64,000 bases of DNA from a virus: the IMG/VR virus record IMGVR_UViG_3300010354_000051, positions 54,720 through 118,719 of that record. The stretch is one strand, 5' to 3'. The notes under the pieces were generated by a model. The model was not told the origin of the DNA. It searched no databases and saw only the letters and a program-made list of their open reading frames with translations. The translations under genes were made by a program, and so were the position numbers. This document shows, piece by piece, positions 2,955-50,981 of the stretch (the first letter of the stretch is position 1; each line of letters starts with the position of its first letter).

Positions 2955-5900
2955 TTACTGTTCTGTGTAATTCAGTGAGAGGTAGATCTCATTGTCTGAC
3001 CCGGAATGGTTAGTTAAAGATCGAGCTATGAAGAATGTCGCCAGATTGCCCTCGTCATCATTTATGATGCTCTCTGCAGAGATGTTAAAAATATCTTGTA
3101 AGTTGATTTCGGTAGAGGTATTGGCTGAGACGTAGTAGGTGGCTAGAGAGTCTCCTGAATCAGAAGTCAGCCAACGAATCGGGTACTCAGAAGGGGTGAA
3201 TATGCCAGCCGAATTGGCTCCGCCCGAAGTTAAAAAACTTCCACATTTTTTAGGGGAGTTGTGGATAGATTTGCGCGTGTTCAGGCTGTCCTCTTGCGGG
3301 TCTATAGTAGGGGCGGTAGACAGACCGAATTTGTCCTGGGCTGTGTAAGTTCGGATTGCTTTTACCACGCCATCTGTTTCAGGAACAGAGGCCCATTCAC
3401 CGTGAGAATCAACACCGGTATCGGAGATAGACAGCGTGCAGCGGTGGGGGGTAAACGGCTCTACTTTTATCCCTTCTGAGGTCTTTTGACCGATCCAAAC
3501 CCCGCCCAGACTAGCTCCTTGCCTACCCTGCAGAAACACTCGGACAAAGGGCAATGAGCCCGGAGCTATCTTTGATGTAATGATGCTGGTGACATTCAGA
3601 TCTCTATTTATGTGACCTATGTATATTGTTCGGTAAGACACACTGACTAGTGAACTGGTGGTTATGTTTGCCGGTAATGTGGTTCCTATGGGCAGTAAGA
3701 ATTGGGTGACATCTCCCACCACTCTAACAACACCACCAGTAGTTGTGACATTGCGTACAAATGAGCCCTGGGTTATAGTAACCACATAAGTTTGTGACCC
3801 GAGGTTGGGCCAGGGTGTCGCATTATCACTCAGGTAGTAGGTTGTTACAGAGGTGGCCGGATTGACTTCGGAAATAATGCTGATGTTGTCCCTGATTTCC
3901 CTACCTGCTCTGCAATACAATCCTCTGCAAGTACCTCCATCCACACCAGGAACTGATGGATAGGTTCTATCCAGCTCCGTGTCAAAATTATACCCGGAAA
4001 GCTCTCTAGTCTCGAAATTGAAAGTGTTGCGCAGTAGGTATATAGAAGTCTCGTAGTAAATTGAGTTATTGCTGTAGTCGAAGGCGAAGTCATAAGGTAA
4101 GCCCTCGTAGTAAGTTGACTGCTGGTCGTAAGTTGGTGAACTTTCAATTCCCCAGCTATTGGACAGGGTAGTAGCATACAGCGGGCTGGATACGTCTGTA
4201 CTCGGCCAAGCCAAACCAATCCTCAGCGATGAAGAGTGAGCTGGTACGACAGTAGTATCCATGTCACCCCCGGTCCAGAAAATATAAAACTCACTACTAA
4301 CCACATCTATCGTACTGAGCAAGATTTGATCTCGTCTGAAATAGTCAAATTCTATATCGTAACCGTCAGAGTAGTTGTCAACTAAGGGGAAAGTGAACGG
4401 CAGATAGACTCCATCCGGGCTGGGTAGTTGCTTACTGCTGGACAAATTTAATATCCCGCTTTTATCTCTGGTCAGTTTAACAGTTACGTTGTCTTGGCCG
4501 AAATCTTTTTGATTATCAGCACACAAGACAAACATATCTTTGCCCAGCGCTCTGACGGACTGCCCGCCTATACTCGTCCAGTTATTACTATCAAACGGGC
4601 TCCTGAAATTACCAGCGGAAGGACCGTTGTAAGTAGCTATTGCCGTATGAGTTCTGCCGTCATCGGATGCAATACCTAGTTCGGGATAGTCCAAGGTATA
4701 AAACGGAGTGATTGCAAACTTACCCCTCATACGTCTTTCTTCGGGCAAAGCATCCCAAATATACCCTTCCTGGTGAGAGAAAGCCCACTCCGGACAACCT
4801 CTTTGCCGAACGATTTTAATCTCACAGTCCTGTTGGCTCCTGACCATGAGCTTGTCGGGGAAAATCTCCTTCTTATTGAAGAACTGGTTTCCAAACCGGT
4901 TAATAATGTATTGCTTGGGTTTTATACCCAATACGGTAACCCAGTCAATAGCGTTTATGTTGGTTTTTATTTCGCTAAACTCAGGGCTGGGCAAATAACG
5001 AACACGAGACTGAGCATTTAAACTATATAAAGTCCCCTTGTCATAGCCGTCGATGTAGTAAGACGCACCGTACTTAGACAGGTTTTGATTTACCCTGATC
5101 GTGGATGAATCACTTACCTTCAGTCGATATTTGAAGTAGAAGAAGGGGTCGGCTAGACACGGTCTGCCTAATTGGTTCTCTATAACCAAAGTGTGCATAG
5201 TTACCCATCTACAATCTCCGCTTCCAGTGGGCACATACGCATAGAATCTCGCCCCGATAGCACCGTACCAGCCGAATTCAATCTTGTACATGGTAACCGT
5301 ATCCGGGTTCAGGAAATAACCACTTTTCCCCTCTCCACTAAGGGGATCACCGTTCATATACTTTTGCTCGATTACAGTCTCGTACTGAGTCAGACCGTTT
5401 ACCGTCACAGCCTTGGTATTAGCCGCATAGTTTGCATTAGCTAAGAACTCTGTACTTTCCAGGGGCACGGTAGACCGTCTGACGATAGAGAACAGTGAAC
5501 CGTTTGTCAGCCTGAACATGTAAGAATCGGTAAGATTCTCCACACCGAATTCGAGCACAGTTCCTGGCCCAGCCCCTATCTCACTAACCTTTACGCCATA
5601 AGTAAATCCGCTTATGCGCCCTGGCTGGTATCTAAAAGCCCTGATTGATTTTATAGTCACCTCACTGCTTATACCCTCTATCCCGCCTATTTTGTTGTTG
5701 TTAGTAGGCAGGTTGATTTGCTGACCGAAGGCTTGAGAAGGCCAGAAGTTGGTGAATGTGTTGTTGATTTTGTCCGGGACTAGGGGGGTGTCCAGAACAA
5801 AATACGGTAGTTTCAGGTCTTTCTCTACCTGGGTTATGGTAGACTCGTTGGCATGGACGGTAAATTCCCAATCCTTTAGATCAGATCTAATTTGAGACCA

Positions 5901-39911: not shown

Positions 39912-41813
39912 ATGATGAATCTTGATCAGGTAAGGGTAATTGACCCCATCCTAACTCAGCTAGCACAAGGTTAATTGTAGCCGTGCCAAAAAGAAATTTT
40001 TGGTATTATAAAGGGGTGAATTGCTGGAAAGCCTAAATCTCTTTGGTTATGGAAACTGTGTATGAGCAATTTATCGAGCATTGTCGCTTGATAGAAGAAA
40101 CAGATAAAGTGTCTGGGGTCTATATGGAAAAACACCACATTTTGCCCAGACATTCTGGAGGAACAAATGAAAAACAAAACCTCATTTATCTCACCAGAAA
40201 AAATCACATTCTAGCTCATTACTACAGATGGATAGCTTACAACTCTAAACCTGACAGGTTAGCTTACCTTTTTATGAGGGGAGACATAACTGGAGAGGCT
40301 AAGAGAGAAGCTAGTAAACTCGCACAAAAAACCTGGACATTTGAAAAAAGGTCTGCATGCTCTAAAAAAGCCTATCAGACTATGCTTAAAAGAAAATCGG
40401 GGATTGCTGCTAGGGGAGAAACTTGGAGACAAAATGTCTCAAAAGCCTCTAAGAAAAACATCCTCCAAAACAGAAAGAGCAGATTTACGAATAAAACAGT
40501 TAGTCTGCAAAACTGTTCTTTTAGGTTTAAACATGGATCCAGGGTCCTTTTTATAAATCAAAAGGACTTTTCTGACTTTTCAGAAACTAGCAAATACCTG
40601 TGTGTTTTGTTGGGAATAAAAGTTAAGAAAAGTGAGCACTTAAAGTTTATAAGACTAGTGCGCGGCGAAAGAAAAGTATTCCATGGCATCAAAGTAGACA
40701 TGGTGATCAGCAGCCAAGCCGAGAATGGGCAAAGTTTTCTCGGAAGGTTCAGAGACTAGGAGAATGAGTCCCAACAATAATTTCTCCCACGAGTGCCCCT
40801 CAGCCTCAAGGCTGAAGATATAGTCCGAACTTACAGGAAACTGTAAGAAGTAGAAGATAAAGAGCTTCTACGATAACATTCTGTACAAGAACGCTGACGG
40901 TGTAGCTACCTTCTTCGCTCCTTCCGTTTCCATGAACGTTAGAGCGGGTAGAACTTTGGTATTCGGTAAGGAGGCTTTTGCCGCTCAGAACTTCCTACGT
41001 TCTCCCGGCACTAACATCCAGAAGATCCAGAACCAATTCGGCACTCGGAGCTTCGCTCTTCGTCAAGAAGCCATTAGCTGGGAAATTGCCGAAGAAGTAG
41101 CCGCTGAGGCTAAGAATGGTGCTGCGGCTATCGACCTTCGCGCCTATGCCGCCAAGGACGCCGCTAACCGTCTAATGCAGTCTTGGGAAATCCAAGTAGC
41201 TGCTAAAGTCCAAGACATTACTCAGTACGAGACCGGTAACGTACTCGATCTGGCCACTTACAACGGTGGTGCTGATCAGTTCAACAACCCGACCTCTGAT
41301 GTGGAAGTCCTAATGGACGCCATGAGAGAGCAAATTCGTAGCCAGATTGGTTGCTATCCCAACAAGCTCGTTCTCTCTCCCGAAGCCTTTAACGCCCTCA
41401 AGCGTAACAAGCGTATTCGTGACTTCATGCAGCGCGGTATTCTTGTCAACGAGAAGACTCTGGCCGAGATCTTTGGTCTTGACGAAATCCGCGTCGCCCG
41501 TCGTCTGAAGCTGAACCAGAACACTGGTGAACTCGAGAATATCTACAGCAATGTCGCTATTCTGTTCTACCATCCTTCCAGCTCAACTGACGGTTTCACC
41601 CCCGCCCTCGATGCGAACTATGGTAATCCGGCCTTTGGGTATACCTATACCCTGTCCGGCTATCCTATCGCTACTCCCGAGCGCTTTAACGTCGAGCGTC
41701 GCACCTTCACTGGTGACATTCTTGTCGAGCGTTCATTCGAGCTTGTTGGCATGGGCGAAACTGGCCGTTGCGGTGCCGGTGCTGTCTTCCTCAACCCCGT
41801 AGGCACTTACTGA
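39912..41813 (+). CDS. Major capsid protein, split by a group I intron (exons 39912-39971 and 40863-41813)
   Basis: Exon 1 encodes ~20 residues (MMNLDQVRVIDPILTQLAQG) and runs into a stop at 39972. Exon 2 opens as SFYDNILYKNADGVATFFAP and continues through IQKIQNQFGTRSFALRQEAI and LVLSPEAFNALKRNKRI, typical of HK97-fold capsid proteins. Joining at 39971/40863 keeps frame (60 + 951 bases) and gives 336 residues. It places a U at the 5' exon end and a G at the intron end, as group I chemistry requires. AAGGGA precedes the tandem ATGs (39912 or 39915). The gene ends before a strong terminator. Confidence 0.8.
39972..40862 (+). ncRNA. Group I self-splicing intron in the major capsid gene
   Basis: An 891-base intron. 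The first bases, TAATTG after exon GGT, match the start of the T4 td intron as I recall it. GAATTGCTGGAAAGCC at about 40018-40034 resembles the P3/P4 region. AAGATATAGTCC at 40815-40826 is the usual group IA P7 3' strand. A CTTACAG-GAAA-CTGTAAG hairpin (40830-40847) is a likely P9. The HNH gene occupies a loop between these core halves. Exact splice sites are inferred from frame and from the U/G rules. Confidence 0.8.
40049..40759 (+). CDS. HNH homing endonuclease inside the capsid-gene intron
   Basis: 236 residues from ATG 40049. The N-terminal HNH motif is clear: MEKHHILPRHSGGTNEKQNL, then IYLTRKNHILAHYYRW, with the His pair, Asn and final His in place. The C-terminal ~150 residues are Lys-rich and probably bind DNA. 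Such enzymes cut intronless copies of the gene to spread the intron. The gene's coding bias is more A-rich (many AAA Lys codons) than the flanking capsid exons, consistent with separate origin. Confidence 0.85.
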   Translation: METVYEQFIEHCRLIEETDKVSGVYMEKHHILPRHSGGTNEKQNLIYLTRKNHILAHYYRWIAYNSKPDRLAYLFMRGDITGEAKREASKLAQKTWTFEKRSACSKKAYQTMLKRKSGIAARGETWRQNVSKASKKNILQNRKSRFTNKTVSLQNCSFRFKHGSRVLFINQKDFSDFSETSKYLCVLLGIKVKKSEHLKFIRLVRGERKVFHGIKVDMVISSQAENGQSFLGRFRD

Positions 41814-50724: not shown

Positions 50725-50798
50725 CGTTCCAGGAGGGACTTGAACCCCCGACCGACCGCTTAGAAGGCGGATGCTCTATCCGGCTGAGCTACTGGAAC
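50725..50798 (-). tRNA. tRNA-Arg (anticodon TCT)
   Basis: Full cloverleaf on the minus strand: acceptor GTTCCAG paired with CTGGAAC, anticodon stem around loop CTTCTAA (anticodon TCT), and T loop TTCAAGT. CCA is not encoded. It would decode AGA, a codon that is frequent in this phage's A-rich genes. Confidence 0.92.
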
Positions 50799-50820
50799 AA
50801 AAGACAGTCGTGACTGTCAG

Positions 50821-50902
50821 TCGGAAAGACGAGACTCGAACTCGTATGCCTTTCGGCGGCGCATTTTGAGTGCGCTGTGTCTACCAATTCCACCACAATC
50901 CG
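50821..50902 (-). tRNA. tRNA-Leu (anticodon CAA), imperfect acceptor stem
   Basis: A class II tRNA with long variable arm. D region TGGTGGAATTGGTAGACAC is typical of Leu; anticodon loop CTCAAAA (CAA) sits on a perfect GCGCA/TGCGC stem; T arm ACGAG-TTCGAGT-CTCGT. The acceptor pairing CGGATTG/CTTTCCG has two T-T mismatches, so it may be decaying or need tolerance for them. Confidence 0.82.
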
Positions 50903-50908
50903 ATTAGG

Positions 50909-50981
50909 TAGGGGTCGCGAGGATCGAACTCGCCTGTGGCGGATTATGAGTCCGCTGCATTCACCAGATTGCTAGACCCCC
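50909..50981 (-). tRNA. tRNA with CAT anticodon (Met or Ile2)
   Basis: Cloverleaf with acceptor GGGGGTC/GACCCCT (one G-T pair), D arm GCA..TGC, anticodon stem GCGGA/TCCGC with loop CTCATAA, and T arm GCGAG-TTCGATC-CTCGC. The CAT anticodon means elongator Met, or Ile reading AUA if lysidine-modified. The initiator features (C-A mismatch at the end, three GC pairs) are absent. Confidence 0.88.

Follow-up and report, generated by a model that had tools for sequence, protein, structure and literature searches.

Group I introns are an established feature of phage capsid genes. In mycobacteriophage LittleE, a group I-like intron of about 820 nt that contains an endonuclease ORF interrupts the major capsid gene, and splicing was demonstrated by RT-PCR and N-terminal sequencing (PMC3706429). 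The same paper cites lactococcal phage Tuc2009, in which a capsid subunit gene contains a group I intron; this resembles the present case as far as that description goes. Endonuclease-bearing introns of cyanophages are known in the DNA polymerase and psbA genes (PMC3428280, PMC8557907). The DNA polymerase intron of cyanophage Pf-WMP3 self-splices, belongs to group IA and encodes the HNH enzyme I-PfoP3I in an ORF spanning the P7 region (PMC3428280). Synechococcus phage S-SRM01 (MW015081, PMC8557907) carries an endonuclease in a group I intron of psbA. Phage genes with several group I introns are also known, for instance in Jug phages, where terL falls into 2-3 fragments.

Here, we describe a further capsid intron, in an uncultivated S-TIM5-like cyanophage. 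The window (the whole stretch of 64,000 nt that was analysed) covers positions 54720-118719 of a 118.7-kb linear record. We suggest, with a probability of about 93%, that a mobile, self-splicing, IA-like (P7.1-containing) group I intron lies between capsid codons 20 and 21. This reading is based on an Rfam match, the junctions of intronless homologues, covariation across eight introns, the P10 pairing, constraint on the endonuclease, the range of alleles and the exon flank. LittleE likewise has its major capsid gene interrupted by an intron with an endonuclease ORF, but it is an unrelated phage with a LAGLIDADG-like endonuclease on the opposite strand, whereas the HNH ORF here is on the same strand. 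Pf-WMP3 shares the intron class, the type of enzyme and the overlap with P7; its ORF begins in P6a, where that of the window begins in the P5 loop, and has a C-terminal HNH motif. Among named phages, S-SRM01 has the closest endonuclease, with 47% identity over residues 3-95 and 35% overall. The C-terminal half has diverged, which is consistent with the two endonucleases having different targets. S-SRM01 (L114) itself has three group I intron matches (3034-3280, 3711-3964 and 4174-4418) in and just after the split psbA.

The interrupted capsid gene and the fold of its intron

The capsid gene follows genes for a tail sheath, a protease/head protein and a small structural protein, and precedes further structural genes, after which a DNA polymerase gene lies on the opposite strand. 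Cyanophages S-TIM5 and S-TIM54 have the same gene order around a capsid gene whose product is 79-80% identical to that of the window. Capsid homology and gene order together place the phage among S-TIM5-like (Aurunvirus-related) phages. Elsewhere in the window, three tRNA genes are clustered at 50725-50981 on the minus strand. The features of the capsid gene are as follows.

39912..39971, plus strand: capsid exon 1, MMNLDQVRVIDPILTQLAQG, 20 codons, last base U; the same residues open the capsids of intronless homologues
39972..40883, plus strand: group I intron (RF00028), 912 nt, last base G; bounds from intronless homologues and eight same-site introns
40049..40759, plus strand: ORF for the HNH homing endonuclease (236 aa), beginning in the P5 loop and overlapping P4', P6 and P7 5', with its TAG inside P7
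39971/40884, plus strand: predicted spliced junction, CACAAGGT joined to TACAAGAACGCT, LAQG-YKN
40884..41813, plus strand: capsid exon 2, YKNADG to the TGA stop; phrog_1005

Exon 1 ends at an in-frame TAA that opens the intron, as the sequence-only reading had noted, and its 5' splice site after 39971 agrees with intronless homologues. The frame downstream of the intron was also correctly taken as capsid, since the protein encoded from 40932 onwards hits PHROG 1005 (major head protein) with an E-value of 6e-54. Intron_gpI (RF00028), the Rfam check proposed for the intron, matches 40545-40847 over the whole model at 46.2 bits and E 1.4e-8. The curated cut-off of 50 bits misses this intron, which was found in E-value mode. 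Introns of relatives that lack the endonuclease at this site reach 83-88 bits, and the lower score in the window likely arises because the endonuclease splits the core. With E 0.01 as the threshold, Rfam found no second intron in the window and a single one in the entire record. Both proposed core landmarks proved real: GAATTGCTGGAAAGCC (40018-40033) covers P4/P5 and AAGATATAGTCC (40815-40826) contains the 3' strand of P7.

Covariation was assessed in codon-20 introns of other viral contigs, with the endonuclease part removed and eight distinct cores aligned. The following elements were drawn.

39969..39982, plus strand: P1, exon GGU (39969-39971) with GCC (39980-39982), U-G wobble at the splice site; hand-drawn, invariant
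39975..39979, plus strand: P10 guide strand UUGUA, pairing with exon 2 UACAA (40884-40888); two-sided changes in 3/5 pairs
39984..40005, plus strand: P2 hairpin; two-sided changes in 6/9 pairs
40012..40017, plus strand: P3 5' strand, 3' strand at 40795-40800; all cells paired, one two-sided pair
40022..40026, plus strand: P4 5' strand, 3' strand at 40708-40712; compensatory change from U-A to G-C in L084
40719..40743, plus strand: P6a hairpin; two-sided changes in all 7 pairs
40754..40758, plus strand: P7 5' strand, 3' strand at 40821-40825; catalytic guanosine-binding helix; invariant, Rfam-aligned
40759..40787, plus strand: P7.1 peripheral hairpin, typical of IA introns; two-sided changes in 4/6 pairs
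40801..40814, plus strand: P8 hairpin; two-sided changes in 2/5 pairs
40830..40871, plus strand: P9 (40830-40847) and P9.1 (40850-40871); two-sided changes in 4/7 pairs each

Across the alignment, 97.5% of cells are paired and 32/71 pairs show two-sided changes; P1 to P10 were drawn by hand on the sequence of the window itself, which gives this structure an advantage in the paired percentage but a far smaller one in two-sided changes. None of 500 shuffles reached the observed count, and slid partners pair at 36-46%. P1 and P7 do not vary among the eight introns and hence lie outside the reach of covariation. The U-G pair at the 5' splice site is found in 8/8 introns. The Rfam match and the covariation together recover the group I core of P3-P4-P6-P7-P8, with P7 as the guanosine-binding helix, and support the group I intron that had been proposed. 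We call the intron IA-like rather than IA2 because P7.1 is clear and covarying while P7.2 could not be made out.

Endonuclease and alleles at the codon-20 site

The intronic ORF had been read as an HNH endonuclease, and this holds. It matches phrog_655 (phage homing endonucleases) at E 6e-17, and residues H29, H30, N44 and H53 are invariant across its orthologues and the endonuclease of the S-SRM01 psbA intron. The Pfam HNH match (E 7e-4, 20.1 bits) falls just below the cut-off of 21.4, and a search of solved structures returned weak matches only (best E 0.15). Pairwise pN/pS among four orthologues is 0.27-0.38, with synonymous sites near saturation, and by this measure the endonuclease family is one that evolved under purifying selection. 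The end of the frame varies, reaching into P8 in L087 and to the P6a loop in L083. ORFs that overlap the ribozyme core are already known in group I introns (PMC3984707; Pf-WMP3, PMC3428280). The overlap suggests that, on a given RNA, translation of the endonuclease and splicing may be in competition.

Capsid-locus alignments, from which allele counts were taken, show empty alleles coexisting with intron-bearing ones at codon 20. Introns with an intact endonuclease measure 912-914 nt. The intron of L031 (915 nt) has a frameshifted endonuclease, and those of L084, L089, L092 and L093 (266-269 nt) have none. Such a coexistence of empty, full, frameshifted and endonuclease-less alleles is as expected of a homing intron, judged from sequence comparison. 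It is unlikely, though more probable than the alternatives concerning splicing discussed below, that the intron of the window splices with an endonuclease that no longer functions, which would make it resident rather than mobile here. The frameshifted and endonuclease-less copies do show that the family degenerates, and the HNH match lies slightly below the Pfam cut-off. Against lost function stand the intact frame of the window's endonuclease, its retained HNH residues and the constraint on the family.

The exon flank points in a similar direction as the mobile intron that we favour. The flank reads GCA-CAR-GGT in 8/8 intron lineages, while GCA and GGT occur in 2/49 empty haplotypes (Fisher p about 3e-8, for sequences that are related and not independent). 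A target requirement, co-conversion and the U-G rule would each account for this bias. L003 has no intron, and its capsid protein is 97% identical to that of the window downstream of codon 36. A comparison with L003 gave no usable signal of exon co-conversion, as the two genes differ throughout at the DNA level.

The proposed mechanism would begin with ribosomes stopping at the intron-opening TAA of the precursor RNA. The intron RNA would fold from P1 to P10, and guanosine would attack after U39971. The freed exon 1 would then attack after G40883, joining LAQG to YKN in a 329-aa capsid. Few phage proteins are expressed as highly as the major capsid protein, and an intron at this location must therefore splice efficiently. 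In co-infecting relatives whose capsid alleles lack the intron, the HNH endonuclease might cut or nick these alleles near the site, and repair of the cut allele could copy the intron in, which amounts to homing. The observations underlying this scheme are boundaries set by comparison, a covarying structure, constraint on the endonuclease, presence-absence polymorphism and endonuclease loss.

The 3' splice site

The sequence-only reading had placed the 3' splice site at 40862/40863, which is 21 nt too early. That junction is in frame and obeys the U/G rule, as had been stated, but it is not the correct 3' site. The rule cannot decide between the two sites because 40862 is G as well; homologues and P10 do discriminate between 40863 and 40884 as the start of exon 2. 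Among 80 capsid loci fetched, 73 read LAQG-YKN/YRN uninterrupted and the other 7 have an intron here. LAQG is likewise directly joined to YKN/YRN in S-TIM5 and S-TIM54. The product spliced at 40884 has 329 aa, like the intronless capsid of L003, and is gapless at the junction against homologues. G40883 is then the last intron base, and a terminal G is found in 8/8 distinct introns at the site. Exon 2 starts with UACAA, UAUAA or UACCG in the eight introns, with the matching guides UUGUA, UUAUA and CGGUA and a single P10 mismatch each in L089 and L031 (2/8 sequences). P10 is the most informative of the helices: its covariation with exon 2 places the 3' splice site at 40884 without recourse to the protein alignment. 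The supported 3' splice site is thus 40883/40884, with a predicted LAQG-YKN junction.

Splicing of the same intron at 40862/40863, which would give a 336-aa capsid including SFYDNIL, is highly improbable. The stretch 40863-40884 contains no stop codon, which together with the frame and the preceding G makes the junction readable. However, SFYDNIL is missing from every intronless homologue and is what results from translating the last part of the P9.1 hairpin and the tail of the intron. The site falls in the loop of P9.1, a conserved and covarying hairpin, and the P10 pairing exists only for the 40884 junction. Relatives with the same intron have unrelated residues at the position of SFYDNIL, and L070 differs even in length. 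Equally improbable is an unspliced gene read from the internal ATG at 40932, which does start a clean 293-aa frame, with the upstream part as a decayed fragment; this start was rejected because homologues conserve exon 1 in full, the first 36 capsid residues are present in all intronless ones, and compensatory changes are kept in the intron core among relatives.

With splicing at 40884 as the preferred reading, standard annotation from the false start at 40932 truncates the capsid gene of the window by 36 residues. The truncation had been anticipated, with an overestimated loss of about 43 residues.

Capsid introns in related phages

The capsid gene of this lineage is probably an intron hot spot, with seven positions, up to five introns per gene and related cores that carry unrelated endonucleases, as far as the assembled sequences indicate. 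Introns follow codons 8, 20, 176, 194 and 287 and lie within codons 52 and 294. The endonucleases are HNH at codon 20 and GIY-YIG at codons 8 and 52. The codon-8 intron encodes a GIY-YIG endonuclease (Pfam E 3e-17) upstream of its core in L014, L096, L098, L100, L102 and L106, and has none in five contigs (L032, L084, L087, L092 and L093). Its 3' core is 83-87% identical to that of the window's intron over 93-126 nt. The codon-8 and codon-20 introns occur together in L084, L087, L092 and L093, with a 36-nt micro-exon between them that encodes VIDPILTQ(I/L)AQG. The intron within codon 52 is found in L092 (971 nt, with its GIY-YIG endonuclease) and the codon-176 intron in L087. Codon-194 introns are present in L087 and L093, the latter of 997 nt (reverse complement) with its own homing endonuclease (phrog_314). 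L089 has the codon-287 intron, and the gene of L118 is interrupted at this codon too. The intron within codon 294 is present in L087; a pattern scan for this site also picks up ordinary exon sequence, and L119 has no intron there.

The capsid gene of L087 (IMGVR_UViG_3300035670_006316, reverse complement from 827) holds five introns of 311, 913, 239, 254 and 254 nt. Rfam matches each of them separately, with E-values from 2.5e-7 to 2.9e-20. Removing all five leaves a continuous 329-aa capsid that aligns gapless over 326 residues with that of the window at 86% identity. L089, L092 and L093 likewise yield continuous capsids of 329-330 aa after intron removal. The relatives are metagenome assemblies, and any single contig could be misassembled. 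Five introns in one capsid gene are the part that a specialist would find unexpected, and no earlier report of a multi-intron capsid gene was found in the literature searched, which lay mostly outside subscription journals. If the gene is indeed a hot spot, virion production would need several self-splicing events in one mRNA.

In nature, one essential gene thus exists as alleles that are empty, carry a full intron, carry a degenerate one or carry several. This lineage makes it possible to follow directly how introns home, change site and swap endonucleases, and to test whether endonucleases that target the capsid gene affect competition between co-infecting cyanophages. Similar intron cores are also found in other phages. 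Group I introns split an annotated portal gene in Streptococcus phage phiJH1301-1 (L115, 1268-1538) and an annotated tape-measure gene in Staphylococcus phage PMBT8 (L117, 1304-1535), with 3' cores that are 85-87% identical to that of the window over about 70 nt.
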